This document shows positions 4,026-63,491 of a stretch of DNA of 64,000 nucleotides, in pieces (positions within the stretch are counted from its first letter, which is position 1; every line of letters starts with the position of its first letter). The notes below the pieces were generated by a model. It searched no databases. It was not told the DNA's origin and saw only the letters and a list, made by a program, of their open reading frames with translations. The stretch spans positions 1,183,001 to 1,247,000 of the forward strand of contig NC_134656.1 in assembly GCF_030463565.1 (NCBI RefSeq), in the 5' to 3' direction. Origin of the DNA: Pelecanus crispus (lineage: Eukaryota; Chordata; Aves; Pelecaniformes; Pelecanidae). The position numbers and the translations under genes are program-made.

Positions 4026-11267
<7,242 letters not shown>

Positions 11268-34279: not shown

Positions 34280-34455
34280 ACCCCCCCGGCGCGGCCCAGG
34301 AGAGCGGCGGGCGCTCGGCGGGCGATGCGGAAGGAGCCCGGGGACTGCTGAGCGGGCCGAGGCCCGGCGGGGCTCCCGGCGACCCCCGGCGTCGCTGCCA
34401 GCCGGGCCCGCGGGGCGGGGGCGGGAAGGACGCGGACCCTGCACCGGCCGCGGAG
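34280..34455 (+). other. candidate alternative BCL2L1 first exon
   Basis: GC-rich sequence ending GGCCGCGGAG followed by GTGAGG, a good donor with its GT at 34456-34457, just downstream of the NRF1 palindromes. It could be an upstream non-coding exon for BCL2L1, which uses several promoters in mammals. The 5' limit is a guess. Confidence 0.35.
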
Positions 34456-35039
34456 GTGAGGGGCGGGAATGGGGCAGGCCGATGAGCGACGCGCGGCTCA
34501 GCCAATGGGAAAGCCGGCTTCCGGGCACCGCCCCCCCGGGGCTCTCCCGGCGGGTGATTGGCTGGCGGGTGGGGGGCGGGCGCCGTGTCGGCCCTCGTGC
34601 GCGGGCCCCGTGCGCGCCGCCCCGCCCCGCCCCGGTACGGCGGCCGCGAGGGGCGCTACGGTGGCCGGGGGGGGGCGGGCCCCTGCCGCCCTCCCGCCTG
34701 CCGCGGCCCGGCCCGGCCCCGGCGCGCTGCTAACGGCGGCGAGCGACCGGAATCGCTCCCGTAAGCACGCAGGGCCGGCTGGCGGCAGCCCCGGGCAGGC
34801 CGTGCCCGGTGGCGAGGACTCGCCGGTTTTCAGCCTTTTATCCCCCTGCGGGGAGCGAGGGGCTTCGGGAGGGCGGGGGCTGCCGCCCGCGGCGGGGCCG
34901 AGCTAACCCCCGGGGGCGGCGGGGGCGGGGGCTGCGCCGCGGTTACCGTCGAACCGGGCCCCGCACGGGGTTGCCGTAACCCTTGGGCAACGCTGCCTGC
35001 CCGCATCCGTTGCCGTTGGGCAACCCGGCGGAGGGGGGC

Positions 35040-35211: not shown

Positions 35212-35491
35212 GTGAGACCCCCGGGGCTGGGGGCCGGGGGCTGCTCGGAGCAGGCCGGGGGGGTCCCCCGGGGCTCGAGGTTGGTCTCCCGGGAGGGGCG
35301 GGGGGGGGGGGGGGTGGGGGTGCTGCCGTCCTCGGTTCTCCGTGCGGCTTCAATCCGGTGACCCTGAGTCTTGGCATAAACCTGCGGGATGACCTCAGGC
35401 TAGCGATAAGCTTTTGGTGCATCTAAGAGCTGTGGCGTTAACCGTTTCTTTGCCTCTCTCCTCTCCTGCTGTTTGTCTGTGCAAAGGTCAG

Positions 35492-35536
35492 ATGTTTCCA
35501 TCGGTCGTGAAGAAGAGCGGAGTCGGGAGCTGCTAA
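35492..35536 (+). promoter_or_regulatory. BCL2L1 uORF 1
   Basis: Upstream open reading frame in the 5' UTR part of exon 2. It encodes MFPSVVKKSGVGSC (14 codons plus TAA) and begins 6 bases after the splice acceptor. It would be read only in transcripts that include this exon. Confidence 0.7.
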
Positions 35537-35562
35537 GTGCTGATCTGCTTGTGCTCCGGACC

Positions 35563-35592
35563 ATGGACTCATTGAGGGCGTCCCAGGTGTGA
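35563..35592 (+). promoter_or_regulatory. BCL2L1 uORF 2, ends two bases before Bcl-xL start
   Basis: Encodes MDSLRASQV then TGA; the stop is followed by AA and then the Bcl-xL ATG at 35595. From memory, the human Bcl-xL mRNA has an upstream frame of the same length starting MD-LS at the same place, also ending two bases before the main ATG. Placement suits termination-reinitiation control of translation. Confidence 0.8.
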
Positions 35593-35594
35593 AA

Positions 35595-38500
35595 ATGTCC
35601 AGCAGTAACCGGGAGTTAGTGATTGACTTTGTTTCCTACAAGCTCTCGCAGAAGGGATACAGCTGGAGTCAGCTGGAGGAGGAGGATGAGAACAGGACTG
35701 ACTTCGCAGCAGAGGAGGCCGAGATGGACGGCGTCCTCAACGGGAGCCCCTCCTGGCATCCACCCACCAGCCACGTAGTGAACGGAGCCACTGTGCACCG
35801 GAGCAGCCTGGAAGTCCGTGAAATTGTTCAAGCAGCCGATGTGAAGCAGGCGCTGAAAGAGGCTGGGGATGAGTTTGAGTTGAGGTACCGGCGGGCTTTC
35901 AGCGACCTCACTTCCCAGCTCCACATCACTCCCGGCACGGCGTATCAGAGCTTTGAGCAGGTAGTGAACGAACTCTTCCGTGATGGAGTGAACTGGGGTC
36001 GCATCGTGGCTTTCTTTTCCTTCGGAGGAGCCTTGTGTGTGGAGAGCGTTGACAAGGAGATGCGGGTATTGGTGGGACGCATTGTATCTTGGATGACCAC
36101 GTACTTGACCGACCACCTAGATCCCTGGATCCAGGAGAATGGCGGATGGGTAAGAACTCCTTTCCATGGTGGGGATGGCTGCCCGCATCCTCCCTCGCTC
36201 CAGGCCGGCAGCAGTGCCGGTCAAACCGGAGCACGGCTCCCTGTTTATGGCTAGCGCATGTCTTAGACCTTGCAGGGAGATAAAGGGGTGTGCGGCCGTT
36301 CCCTCTATGCTCTTAAGGCTCTGCCCCAAGAGGGTCACTCCACGGCGATGACACAGTTTATACTCAGATGTGTCCTTCTCCATCCCTGTTTCTTCTCCTT
36401 CTCCCTGGATGTTACATAAAAGACCTGTTTTCCAAGAGCCTTTGGAAATCTAATGTCATCCAAGCTTGTTCTTCAAGTGGGAACCCTTGCTCTCAGGCAT
36501 GTTCCTGGTGTCATTTAACAGCAGGGAGTGGAGCTTCCTCCTCTCCGAGCATGCAGTGCTCCGGCGGGCCGGCCTGCGGTCTGCTGGGGTAAGAGCTACT
36601 TCTTCATTCTGGAGTCAGGACTTTGCCTTCTGCTGTGCTCCCAGTGAAGCAAATCCCACAGCGGATCTGGGTGTGTGGGTGGGTGGGCCTGCCTGAGCCG
36701 GTGCAGTGGGAGACAGGGCTGAGGTGGGGGCAGCCTCGGCGCTGGGGAGCTGCTAAACCTGCAGCTGCTTCTTCCTTGGCAGGGAGCAATGCTCCCAGCT
36801 GCCCCAGCAGCAAACCCCAGTAGGCTTTCAGTGGTGAGGTATTAACATGAATAAGCATTTCTTCGGGAAGCATTCTTGAGATTCCGGGTCCGGCTGTGCG
36901 GTGCCTGGGACTGCCAGCGGGAGGTATACGACCTACAGATGTCTGAGTTTTCTTTTTGCTTCTGCATCTTAGTGATTCCCTGCTGCTGTAACCTTTACTG
37001 GTGCCCGCTGGAAAGAGTTCATGCTGTCAGGCGTTAGCATCTAACGGCGGGGAGCTGCCTTGCTGGCGAGCTGAGGCCTTTCCGCCCTCTTCACCTCCTA
37101 CTCCATCGCCAGGCCCCTGCATCTCAAGGAGAGGGCAGGAACCTTTGAGCCCAGCGCTGGGCTCTGCGCCCTCCTGACAGAGGAGAGGTGCAGGACCCCC
37201 GCAGAGCTCCCCGGCTCCTGGAGCCCGGCCAGCGATGCAGGGGACCCCGGAGAAGAGGGGGAGTTGGGTGCACCCAGGGTGCAGGAATTCCAGGAATGCG
37301 GCCGCCCTGGGGCACTGCCTGGGTGGGGCTGCTCAGGCGGAGGAGCTCGGCTTCGATTAATAACCCGGGATCTGCTAGCCATTTCATCAGGCTGTATCTG
37401 GCCCATTAGCTCTCTCATCCTGCAGACAGCCCTGGCCAAATGCTGAGTTCCTTCCCCCTCCCTCTGGCTTTGGCTTTTAAAGCCACAGATTAGTCTTGGA
37501 ATTGAGTGATCAAACTGAGGTTTCCAAGCTAGTGTGGCTGTTGCTGTTAGTGACGGATTGGGCTGTATCCTGGAGACCTAGGCGATAATGCAATCTGATT
37601 TTTTGTAAATGAACTCTCTGGGGGATTTAGATTAAATCACTGGTGGAAAATCACTGGTCCCTGCTTGCGGGGAATGAAATACCTCCTCCCTCTGTTCCCT
37701 ACCCCCAACCAGCACGGTTAAGACTCTTCAATTTTTTTGTGTCTGCCTGTAAATTCATTGTTTGGAGCAAATATTTGTTCAACAGATTGCAGAGGGGTCA
37801 GGACTCCTCTCTATCTGACCCGCCCACCGGCTCTTGCTTTGAAGATGGCTGTTAGCCGTGTTTCCCACCCAGGGGAGCAGCCTTGCTCTCTTCTTTTAAC
37901 CTTGAACGGGGCTTCTAACTTCACTGCTCAGGCTGTGCTGCTTCCCTGGGCTGTGCCGGTAGCTGAAGGGGAGCCGGGCAGGGAGGTAAAAGCCATAGTG
38001 GGTGGGATCCCACCCCACCAGCCACCAAAAAAAAAAAAGGACTGGGCAACGTGGCTGCTGCCAGTCTGTTGCAAACCCCGACCGGTGCTTGGTTGACGTC
38101 TCAGCTGTAGCTTTCCTACATGCTCAGGTTTCACCATGTCCCTTTGCGTGGCAGGGGGGTGGCCGGTCCCTTTGCGAGGCAGGGGGGCGGCCGTGGGGCT
38201 CCAGGCGAAGGGACAGCACGGTGCAGCGGTAGCACAGGGGCCGCGAGAGCTCCCGAGCGCCTCACGCGTGGGGATGCTCCGCTTCGCTCTCACGCGACTC
38301 CAGCTGCGGGGAGAAAACTGCTGGCCTGCTGCCAGCTCGCCCTGCAAAGAAGAAAGTGCCAGCCTGCAGTTGCTGTGATGGAGCCGTCCCTCTCTTGCCG
38401 CCCTGTTTGCACAGGGGAGCCTGTCTGGTGCATCTGAGCTGTTAGAGCCTGTCCCAAGCAAACAAAGCTCTCCCGAGCGGTGCAGCAGGCAGGTCCCGGT

Positions 38501-50500: not shown

Positions 50501-51682
50501 TCACGGTGGTCCGAGGTCCCTGGGTACCCAGGGCAGCAGGAGGGGTGGCATGGTGCCATGGGGGTGCTGCATGGGCACAGGGACCAGACGTGGTCTCCGA
50601 GAGCCCGTTTTCGGGAGCAATTCAGCTCTGGTGGTCTTCTCTCTCTCTCTCTTTGCCCTCCAACTCCCTCAGCGCAGGCCACGGCCATCTGTCCCCAGCC
50701 CCGTCACACGTCTCCCTCGGAGGGAGAGGGGCTCTGCCTGTTTGCTGCGCAGTGGCTCTGCTGAAATCTGCCCGGCTCTTGCTGTTGCTGGAGATGAAGG
50801 ACCGGAGGTGGCCGGCTCGTATGAGCCGGGCTGGAGTGACTGCATTCCTGGCCGGGCCTCGTGCTTGGCCTGCTCTCCCGAACCCTGGGGGAAGGCAGGA
50901 TTTTCGGGACCCAGAGCGTCTGCCTTCACCGCAGGGATTCGCGAGATCCAGACCATGCTGCAGAGTAACCTGCGATGGCCAGGACGTGGGAGCGCTCGTC
51001 TTTTGCTAGGATGCGGCAGTGGGGAGAGGGAGGTGGGAGGCTCCACTTTGGACACAAAAGTGGTGGGGGGATGCGCGCTGCGGGCTCCTGCCGCAACCAT
51101 GGGCACCAACCCTGCTGCTGCTCCCCCAGGCCTTGGCCATGGAATAAAGCCCAGCGTTTTCCTGCTGCAATGATTTCTATCACACTTCGGTGCTAATTTT
51201 AGAGAGCCTAGACCACGTGGTGCATCTCCTGCCCTGCCCGCATGGTGTTCTCCTTGCAAATCCTTTCTGGCATCTACTTCTCTCATGACTGGTCCTGCGC
51301 TTCCCCCATCGCCCTCTGTGCGTGATTCAGCGCAAGGAAGCACAAGGCGTCTGTCATCCGCCCGCTCCCCACCACCACTTTCCTGCCCGCAGGAGCCCAG
51401 CAGCCTTCCTGCCCCTTCCCGCTGCGTCTTCCCCTCCGGACCGCTCCACGGAGGAGGAAGGACCCCCAGAAAGCGGCAGAGAGGGTCTCTGTGCTCCGCT
51501 CCCACCCCTCCGCTCCCCTGCTCACCGCTCCTCTCTTCCCACAGGAGCGGTTTGTGGACCTCTACGGGAACAACGCTGCTGCCGAAGTGAGGAAGGGCCA
51601 GGAGACCCTCAACAAATGGCTCCTGACCGGGGCGACGGTGGCAGGAGTGCTTCTGCTGGGATCCCTGCTGAGCCGCAAGTGA
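35595..51682 (+). CDS. BCL2L1: BCL2L1, anti-apoptotic Bcl-xL
   Basis: Outer mitochondrial membrane protein that binds BH3 proteins and restrains BAX/BAK. Coding exons are 35595-36149 and 51545-51682, both boundaries in phase 0; the sum is 693 nt, 230 aa (human 233, chicken 229). BH4 is at residues 4-24, an acidic flexible loop follows, and BH3 is at 83-98 (VKQALKEAGDEFELRY). BH1 is at 126-146 ([20 protein letters not shown]). BH2 is at 177-192 and spans the exon junction (PWIQENGGW then ERFVDLYG). The tail anchor is at 210-227 (WLLTGATVAGVLLLGSLL), ending SRK. The start is the first ATG after two uORFs and matches the family N-terminus. An internal donor, CAG|GTAGTG at 35961, would give the short Bcl-xS form. 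If the intron is retained the frame reads 35 codons further, to a stop at 36254, a Bcl-x-beta-like end. Confidence 0.98.
43935..43965 (-). repeat. second fragment of the old dispersed repeat
   Basis: The plus strand reads AGCTAATATCTTTTATTAGA, matching the end of the element at 16785-16880 in the same orientation. Only the terminal portion is recognisable. Confidence 0.55.
46690..46880 (+). repeat. MIR/CORE-SINE-like ancient repeat
   Basis: The order of matches follows the MIR consensus: GATTGGGAGTCAGATGC; GGCTTGTGTGCAACTCTAGG with GCACTTAATCTCTCCGCACC; CTGTTGATCTGTCTGGGAAC; and a tail with GCAGGAGGTTTGGGAG and CATTAAGATCCTTGGGTGG. MIRs are tRNA-derived SINEs of great age in amniotes and are sparse in birds. 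It appears diverged and truncated at the 3' end. Confidence 0.7.
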
Positions 51683-54458: not shown

Positions 54459-57400
54459 TCAGGACTTGTACTGCAGGTCTGTGGCGATGAGCACGAAGCC
54501 CTGTGGGTAGTCAGGGTGAGACGGGGTGGGGGGAACGTGGGGGGCACTGGGGTGAGGGGACAGTGGCAGCACCCACCTCCTGCAGCGAGAGCCGGGGGTC
54601 GAGCAGGCTGAGGCCGTGCGGGGTGGGCAGGGGGACGCCAGCCTGGAGCCGCTCTGCGGGGAGAGCAGAGCCGTGAGGGGAGGTGGCTCCTGGGGGGGGT
54701 GCAGGGGACACACGGGGACAGGATGGGGACGGCACTCACTGTTTGCCCAGGGCACCCCAAAAAGCCACAGCCCGAACTTCAGCAGGGTCTCCAGCCTCTT
54801 CACCTGCGGGACAGGCAGCCCCCTGAGCCCGGCACGGGGCAGGTGGAGGGGGCCGTGGTGCAGGCAGGGCTCAGCTCCCCTGCCAGGGCTGCACCCGCTG
54901 CCTGCGCAAGCGCTCGGCGGTGCTGGCCTTGCACAGGCTCCACAGCACCCCCAAACCCCACCGCCCGGACCCCCAGCCTCTGCTCCCAGGCCGGTGCGGA
55001 GCCCCAGGCTCCCCCCTCGTGCCCCGGGCATGGCCGCTCACCTCCACCGGCCCCACATGCGATGTCACCTGCATCACGCTGAGCCTGGAGGGCGAGAGCA
55101 GGGTGAGAGCCAGGCACGGGGACAGGGACAGGGACTGTCCCCTCCCCGGGCAGGGCTGGGCTGAGCCCCACGGCAGCACTGGGAGCCTGGCAGAGCGGGT
55201 CCAGCTGAGGACCAAGCCAGGGTACGAGTGCCAAGGCAGCAGGCATGGCCAAGAGCCGGGGGGCAGGATGGGGTCCGAGCAGGCGATACGGGATGCGGGG
55301 AGGCAAAAGGCCAGAGGTGGAGAATGGGGGGAGCTCCCCGGGGACATCCATGGGGAGGCCGGACCCAGCACGGCGCTGGGGACTCACCCTCTCAGGCTCA
55401 CGGTGCCCCCGAGCCTGTTCCCAGTGATGGTCGGCTTCCCCGTCACGTTGGCATCCTGCAGCAAGAAGAGATGTTGGAAAAAACAGGGCAGTGCCTGCGA
55501 CCTACCTGCACCACCCAGCATCACCCAGTATCGCCCAGCATCACCCAGCATTGCCCAGTATCGCCCAGCATCGCCCAGTATCGCCCAGCGTCACCCAGCA
55601 TCGCCCAGCATCACCCAGCATTGCCCCAGTATCGCCCAGCATTGCCCCAGTATCGCCCAGCGTTGCCCCAGTGTCACCCAGCATTGCCCCACCGTCGCCC
55701 AGCATCGCCCAGTATCGCCCAGCGTCACCCAACATTGCCCAGTATCACCCAACATCGCCCAGTATCGCCCAGCATTGCCCCAGTATCGCCCAGCATTGTC
55801 CTAGTGTCACCCAGCATTGCCCCACCGTCGCCCAGCATTGCCCAGTATCGCCCAGCATCGCCCAGCGTCACCCAGCATCGCCCAGTATCGCCCAGCATTG
55901 CCCCAGTATCGCCCAGCATTGCCCCAGTGTCACCCAGCATTGCCCAGTGTCACCCAGCATTGCCCCAGCACAGCCCCAGCCCGGAGCGCAGGCAGCAGAC
56001 CCTGTGCCATGGCAGCACTCACGATGTTCAGCAGAAACACGGGGACGCGAGTGGCATTGGGCAGCACCACAAAGGCCTCAGCGGAGCTGAAGAGGGCCCC
56101 GTGCAGGGCGCCAGGGTGGCAGGAGAACAGGGGCTGCTGGCGGGCCCAGAGGTGCAGCTCCATGGCGTGGTCTGGGTAGCGCTCCTGCAGCTGGGGGGGC
56201 GAGGGCTGCGCTGGCACGGAGCGACGCCGGCACCGCTGGCACCAGCCCAGGCTCCCAGCCGGCCCCCAGCACCACCATGCCCTGGGCTCGGTGCAGGCAG
56301 GGTGGGCAACGCGTCCTGTCCTGCCCATGCTCCACCTGCCCACGTCCTGTCCTGCCTGTGTCCCATCCCTGCTGCATCCCATCCTGCATCTCATCCTGCC
56401 TGCATCCCATCCCGGGTCCCATCTCCCCTGCATGCTGTCCCTCCTGTGTCCCATCCTGCCTGCACACCATCCTGTGTCCCACCCCTCCTGCATCCCATCC
56501 CTTCTCCTGTCCCTCCTGCATCCCATCCTTCCTGTGTCCCATCCCTCCTGCATCCCATCCCTCCTGTGTCCCATCCCTCCTGTGTCCCATCCCTCCTGTG
56601 TCCCATCCCTCCTGTGTCCCGTCCCATATCCCATCTCGTGTACCATCCCTCCTGCATCTCATCCCTCCTGTGTCTCATCCTGTGTCCCATCCCATGTCCC
56701 ATCCCTCCTGCATCCCATCCCTCCTGCATCCCATCCCGTGTCCCACTCCACCACATCCTGCCCCATCCCATGTTCTGGTGTCCCACTCCACCCATCCTGC
56801 GTCCCATCCCATGTCCCATTCTCCCCCTGTCCCATCCCACCCCGCCCAGCACTGGGGACCGCTCCCTGCCCTGCACCCACCTCCGGGGAGAAGGCCCCCA
56901 CGTTCTTGGTCCTCAGCTGGAGCGGGAACCGCCGTGGGAGCTGGAAGGGAGCAGAGGGGTCAGGACGCTGGTGCCGCGAGGCACGGGGCAGGCGCGGGGA
57001 TGCCCCGGCGGGACCCCGGGGAGCAGCCCTTGCCCCGCGGCCACGGCCCTACCATGTCGCCGGAGATGTTCCTGCGCAGGGCCCCGGCCATGAAGTACGC
57101 GAAGGCGGCCGAGTTGGCAACGAACTCGGTGACGGCCAGCAGCAGCATGGGCTCGCGCGCCGCGGGCAGCGCCGTGGGCAGAGCCGTGGGCAGCGCCGCG
57201 GGCGGCGCCGAGGAGGGGCTCTCCTGGCTCTTGCCCACCCTGAAGAACTCCCCCTGCGCAGACGGACAGATGGATGGACGCAAGGCTCAGCCCGGCTCCC
57301 CCCACGCACCCCGTTCCCAGAGCCGGCCCAGGGACACCCCAGGTGACGGTACCTTGAGGGCGACGTCCCCGTGCTCCGCCGTGATGGCCGGCTGCCCCAG

Positions 57401-62913: not shown

Positions 62914-63491
62914 TCAGCGGCACAGGATCCGGTCGGCAGCGGGCATGCACGGAGCCTGCGGGGAAAGCGGGGGCGAAGCGGGCGGTCAGTGCTGCTCGGG
63001 GGGGGTCCCGGGATGGAAGGTGGGGGGGGCAGGAGGAAGGAGCACCCCCGGGGAGGGGACGGCGCGGTGCAGAGCGGGGCCGTCCGGGGAGCCCGGCTGG
63101 GCCGGTGCCGCCGGGCTCTGGGCGGGGGGGGGGTACGGGGACTCCCGCACTCACCTCGGGGGGGTCCCCGGCGGCGGCGGGGCGGGGGGGGCCCGCGCTG
63201 CAGAGCCAGCTGCAGGTCCCAGATGTAGTCGATGACATGCTGCAGCAGCTCCACCTTGGAGACCCGCCGGTGTCGCGGCAGCGTCGGTACCAGCGCCCGC
63301 AGCCGCGAGTAGCAGCCCTTCATGTCGTACAGCAACGCGGCGGCGGCCGCCTGCTCCGCCGCCCCCGGGGACGCTCCCGGCGGCACCCCCGGGCCCGGCC
63401 CGCAGCGAGCGGCCTCCCCGGGCCGCACCGCTTTCAGCGCGCCGCCGGCACCCGCGGGCAGCGGCGAAGGGGCGGCGGCGGCGACCTTCAT
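62914..63491 (-). CDS. ID1: ID1, HLH inhibitor of DNA binding
   Basis: ID proteins dimerise with E-proteins through the HLH and, lacking a basic region, block DNA binding. Coding exons (minus) are 63491-63155 and 62955-62914. Exon 1 encodes [14 protein letters not shown], a Gly/Ala/Pro-rich stretch, and then the [23 protein letters not shown], loop RHRRVSK, and helix 2 [19 protein letters not shown]. Exon 2 encodes [13 protein letters not shown] followed by a stop, the family C-terminus. The two exons total 379 nt, one base too many. The frame set by exon 1 meets exon 2 out of register; the discrepancy localises to the segment after LALQ, where a G8 run lies at 63184-63191. Read literally, the exon 1 frame would instead run on to a stop near 62768. 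A sequence error in the homopolymer is the likeliest cause; a genuine divergent tail is less likely. Confidence 0.9.

Follow-up and report, generated by a model that had tools for sequence, protein, structure and literature searches.

Conserved upstream open reading frames (uORFs) are a well-known class, and the nine-codon uORF that precedes the Bcl-xL coding sequence is probably a further member. The level of Bcl-xL helps to set the apoptosis threshold and the response to BH3-mimetic drugs, and a uORF that is conserved, has a strong start context and lies no more than 32 nt from the Bcl-xL start would be a direct and easily tested control point. The human Bcl-xL leader has been described as an IRES, in work that itself names cryptic promoter and splicing effects as still open (PMC13163806, 2026); the term 'uORF' has 0 occurrences in the main text of that paper. 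Searching the literature with the gene names and uORF terms, we found no title on a Bcl-xL uORF among those listed and no description of one in the excerpts returned, which is no proof of its being unreported, and the frame may be listed in automatic uORF catalogues.

Across 4741 uORF-containing genes in mouse fibroblasts, a larger distance between uORF and coding sequence (CDS) was associated with DENR-dependent reinitiation, the distance regression explaining little of the variance (adjusted R2 0.057), and the classical view cited in the same work is that longer spacing lets initiation factors be regained (PMC6547434). Human reporters whose strong uORFs ranged from one codon to nine depended on DENR-MCTS1 essentially at one codon only; the authors link this limit to factor loss during elongation (PMC5473865). 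Such a limit leaves room for DENR-independent restart.

The window that we analysed, a 64,000-nt stretch of the Pelecanus crispus genome, carries the BCL2L1 (Bcl-xL) gene on its plus strand. The coding part of the first coding exon spans 35595-36149 (185 codons), and its 185-aa translation, which resembles chicken Bcl-xL, matches 'Apoptosis regulator Bcl-X' in the PDB (best E 3e-95) as well as both the Bcl-2 and the BH4 families of Pfam, so that the identification of the downstream protein as Bcl-xL in an earlier, sequence-only reading is borne out. Splice consensus places both borders of the exon at 35487-36149 (plus strand), with a pyrimidine-rich 3' splice site whose AG lies at 35485-35486 and a donor, GGATGG/GTAAG, whose GT lies at 36150-36151; by the same AG border, the leader part of this exon would be 108 nt long (35487-35594, plus strand). 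The last coding exon, which encodes the membrane anchor, lies at 51545-51682 on the plus strand, with approximate borders. A search of the bird's own genome (1.31 Gb, 310 contigs) returned one match, the query itself, and the exon protein led to 0 confirmed related loci among viral contigs (4 pattern matches) or genome contigs (119 pattern matches). Upstream, two donor-like GTGAG sites, with GT at 34456 and 35212, lie within a GC-rich stretch, as if BCL2L1 had alternative first exons. Of these, the distal candidate would add an upstream ATG at 34325 (MRKEPGDC), given a transcription start upstream of 34325.

Three other features of the window were recorded in passing. On the minus strand at 63491, a gene that we take to be ID1-like is preceded in the genomic DNA by a 64-codon ATG frame whose ATG lies 191 nt upstream and whose stop overlaps the gene start as ATGA; this ATG, placed upstream of a TATA-like site, is probably absent from the mRNA. 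Kinase-exon-like frames at about 5229-6532, also on the minus strand, presumably belong to a myosin light chain kinase gene. At about 55430-56670, both strands show frames of repetitive sequence (HPALPSIAQHRP, GWDTGGMGHRRDG) that suggest minisatellite-like tandem repeats.

Within the exon leader, the ATG at 35563-35565 opens the nine-codon frame MDSLRASQV (35563-35592, plus strand), which is closed by TGA at 35590-35592 and separated by the two bases AA (35593-35594) from the Bcl-xL ATG at 35595-35597; on re-reading, every base stands as the sequence-only reading had claimed. The start context, ACCATGG (35560-35566), is strong, since its -3 base is A and its +4 base is G, and an upstream AUG (uAUG) of this kind should see frequent use. 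Base -3 of the Bcl-xL start context is itself the final A of the uORF stop (35592). The uORF is in frame +2 relative to the CDS and would, without its stop, overlap it by 25 nt. An N-terminal extension of Bcl-xL is ruled out by the +2 frame, the CDS frame itself being stopped at 35541. The element is an AUG-started frame closed upstream of the CDS, and splice consensus would place it in the mRNA: since it shares one predicted exon with the Bcl-xL start, it would be carried by any transcript whose 5' end lies upstream of 35563 and which uses that start. A transcript beginning downstream of 35563 would omit the uORF. The 108-nt leader holds a second uORF that the earlier reading had not given, MFPSVVKKSGVGSC (35492-35536, plus strand), of 14 codons and with a weak start context; 26 nt separate its end from the strong uORF and 58 nt from the CDS.

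The sequence-only reading had pointed to a human frame of equal length and spacing. We rebuilt the corresponding 32 human nucleotides from oligonucleotides printed in three papers, namely a BCL-XL primer used with prostate cancer lines, TGGGCTCAACCAGTCCATTG (reverse complement CAATGGACTGGTTGAGCCCA; PMC6770702), a Bcl-XL promoter-reporter primer, TTTTATAATAGGGATGGGCTCAACC (reverse complement GGTTGAGCCCATCCCTATTATAAAA; PMC8167103), and a knock-in guide for human BCL-xL, AAAAATGTCTCAGAGCAACC (PMC9616799). Joined, these printed oligonucleotides give ACA-ATGGACTGGTTGAGCCCATCCCTATTATAAAA-ATG, which reads MDWLSPSLL, TAA, AA, ATG. The last join runs through a four-A overlap, where a longer A run is possible, so the exact human gap depends on this join; the resulting TAA-AA-ATG agrees with the human frame given in the earlier reading. 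Two further printed primers, TTGGACAATGGACTGGTTGA (PMC2886060, retina) and CTGGTTGAGCCCATCTCTATT (PMC8773671, heart), which topic and gene-symbol style indicate to be from rodents, cover the first 26 of the 32 nt and differ from human at one of these 26, a synonymous site. The human and rodent oligonucleotides share the start context ACAATGG, which has the same -3 A and +4 G as the window.

Over the uORF and gap, an ungapped comparison of the window and human sequences gives 22 identities in 32 positions (P ~1.7e-7, or about 2e-7, from composition only), and none of 2000 shuffles reached the aligned score of the uORF. The inner eight codons alone match at 15 of 24 positions (P ~9e-5), divided as 6/8, 6/8 and 3/8 among codon positions 1, 2 and 3, and the window matches the rodent sequence at 17 of 26. 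By eye, the two peptides have only four of nine residues in common and differ at five, the final three before the stop being SQV in the window and SLL in human. Start and stop are kept in human, as far as the four-A join holds, and the rodent primers agree as far as nucleotide 26 of 32. Because 22 of 32 nucleotides but only four of nine residues match human, the comparison indicates that the start, the stop and their placing have been preserved better than the peptide. The human frame of the earlier reading thus exists in the rebuilt oligonucleotides, with the same length, the same 2-nt gap (TAA-AA-ATG against TGA-AA-ATG) and a changed peptide, and the argument that position and termination matter rather than the peptide gains support. 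The wider statement that this holds across birds and mammals stands for the window and human, on a basis of one bird, human and two rodent primers; neither a literature search with the bird sequence letters nor the contig searches brought up a second bird or a reptile sequence.

As a control we aligned a provisional version of the 56 nt that precede the uAUG in the human leader, which match the window at 18 of 56 positions without gaps and at 8 of the last 12, and whose gapped score was reached by 9 of 2000 shuffles. Conservation thus is strongest in the uORF, yet extends beyond it, a point that weighs to some degree against the uORF being the only constrained element. What the composition test shows is homology, and a degree of preservation unusual for a leader over the bird-human distance; by itself it is no proof of selection on translation.

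The layout was also set against 50,000 dinucleotide-shuffled versions of the 108-nt leader, with a strong context defined as a purine at -3 and G at +4. Some closed uORF arose in 34,357 of the 50,000 (68.7%), and one ending no more than 5 nt from the CDS in 6,267 (12.5%). Exact termination 2 nt before the CDS was far rarer (676; 1.35%), and it was accompanied by a strong start context in 111 shuffles (0.22%) and by a length of nine codons in 36 (0.07%); these tests were set up after the case had been seen, and the smallest percentages overstate the surprise. In a single sequence, the nine-codon, 2-nt layout is unusual and not decisive, and the human match is the stronger evidence. Pure chance is disfavoured, given that match. 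The unusual feature is, as the alignment has it, the exact two-base gap common to bird and human.

We judge it somewhat probable that this is a conserved inhibitory uORF, fed by leaky scanning, which would act without its peptide; as such it is probably an old brake on Bcl-xL output. Scanning ribosomes would often initiate at the strong-context uAUG, read the short frame to its end and stop with the Bcl-xL AUG only two bases ahead. Over such a gap, 40S subunits left after termination would hardly pick up a new initiator tRNA through ordinary rescanning, and most of these ribosomes would be lost. Bcl-xL would then be made mostly by ribosomes leaking past the uAUG, with a minor share from local restart after termination, and the result would be a lower basal output of the survival protein, tunable through start-codon stringency or ribosome recycling. 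What the sequences show is the layout, the start context and the human and rodent conservation, with a predicted common exon; uORF translation, repression and the route to the main AUG we infer. In favour of a brake, the favourable -3 A and +4 G of the uAUG recur in the window and in the human and rodent oligonucleotides; the stop is kept despite a base change from TAA in human to TGA in the window; and the uORF and CDS start lie in the same predicted exon, so that splicing would not separate them. Against it, so near-consensus a uAUG context predicts little leakage, yet Bcl-xL is made; the IRES reported for the human leader would bypass the uORF; and transcripts starting downstream of 35563 would lack it. 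A study of infected U343 cells, in which eIF2alpha phosphorylation was raised, reports Bcl-xL as highly translated (PMC6387032), an observation that fits any of a brake, local restart or an IRES.

The earlier suggestion that the arrangement suits reinitiation control fares less well. A gap of 2 nt lies at the unfavourable end for rescanning when set against the published trend (PMC6547434), and nine codons fall outside the DENR-MCTS1-sensitive length in the reporter series (PMC5473865). Because these spacing and DENR data disfavour efficient rescanning, we prefer a leaky-scanning throttle to a dedicated local restart. A restart of the latter kind, coupled to termination, is the main alternative, though one that we consider rather unlikely: the ribosome or its 40S subunit would shift a few bases to the Bcl-xL AUG, the uORF would serve to deliver ribosomes, and the 2-nt gap would have been selected. 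Short-range movement of post-termination ribosomes has been seen in vitro; to our knowledge, termination-coupled restart is scarcely documented for cellular vertebrate genes. The shared nine-codon length and 2-nt gap, and a stop kept while its identity changed, speak for such a restart, as does the strong uAUG, which would leave few leaky ribosomes. These points are offset by the 4741-gene trend, in which DENR-dependent reinitiation went with larger, not smaller, uORF-CDS distance (PMC6547434), and by the AA before the ATG, which selection for a good Bcl-xL start context would by itself also lead one to expect. That the stop-AA-AUG unit, kept from bird to human, makes two-base termination-coupled shifting the main route to the Bcl-xL start seems to us quite improbable; if true, it would tie survival-protein output to termination and recycling factors.

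The stretch might instead have been kept for another reason, such as an exonic splicing signal, RNA-protein binding, an IRES or the Bcl-xL start context, with the frame incidental or rarely translated. The similarity of the provisional human leader beyond the uORF, the IRES claims and the frequency with which shuffled leaders place a uORF end within 5 nt of the CDS all lend something to this explanation, which we nevertheless regard as improbable, since the strong uAUG context, the nine codons and the in-frame stop are kept though 10 of 32 bases differ. Nor does the RNA itself stand out: the segment 35487-35660 folds no better than its shuffles (z -0.54, with 59 of 200 doing equally well), and Rfam gave no match at threshold, the one hit with E below 1 scoring 19.9 bits where 35 are required and lying at 36152-36183 on the opposite strand, outside the leader. 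A structured RNA in the leader was rejected on the fold score.

Delayed reinitiation over the two bird uORFs, in which the strong uAUG would be met when initiator tRNA is plentiful and skipped in favour of the Bcl-xL AUG under stress, is very unlikely: the order of the two frames and their 26-nt and 58-nt spacings would allow it, but these spacings are small, the start context of the first uORF is weak, and the provisional human leader stretch holds no ATG, so that the pair would not be common to human. Short peptides can stall ribosomes, and the frame is open with a weakly coding-like excess of matches at codon positions 1 and 2 over position 3, but action of the nine-residue peptide itself, by stalling or as a product, is scarcely credible with so few residues in common and SQV exchanged for SLL before the stop, where a peptide-dependent uORF would show a conserved peptide.

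A probable brake so close to the start codon may already have been included in published constructs. The reverse primer of the human Bcl-XL promoter reporter ends in TATAAAA (PMC8167103), and by our reconstruction its last base is the one before the Bcl-xL ATG, so that the uORF would sit right ahead of luciferase.

Among known systems, the Bcl-xL IRES under PDCD4 and eIF3F resembles the present case in that translation of this very gene would be controlled from its leader, and differs from a uORF brake in having been proposed as cap-independent. ATF4-type delayed reinitiation likewise has two uORFs before the CDS; it differs from the window, where the second uORF ends short of the CDS and the distances are small. 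The stuORFs, which are short, have a strong Kozak context and require DENR-MCTS1, are matched by the strong uAUG (ACCATGG), the shortness and the lack of CDS overlap of the window uORF. In human cells, however, DENR-MCTS1 dependence goes with a length of one or at most two codons (PMC5473865), and nine codons followed by a 2-nt gap fall outside the sensitive range (PMC6547434, PMC5473865). The closest relative is the human BCL2L1 uORF, with its rodent counterpart, which lies in the orthologous place, has nine codons and a strong uAUG context and, in human, the same stop-AA-ATG junction (the rodent primers covering the first 26 nt); it differs from the window in five of nine residues (MDWLSPSLL in human) and in ending in TAA where the bird has TGA.
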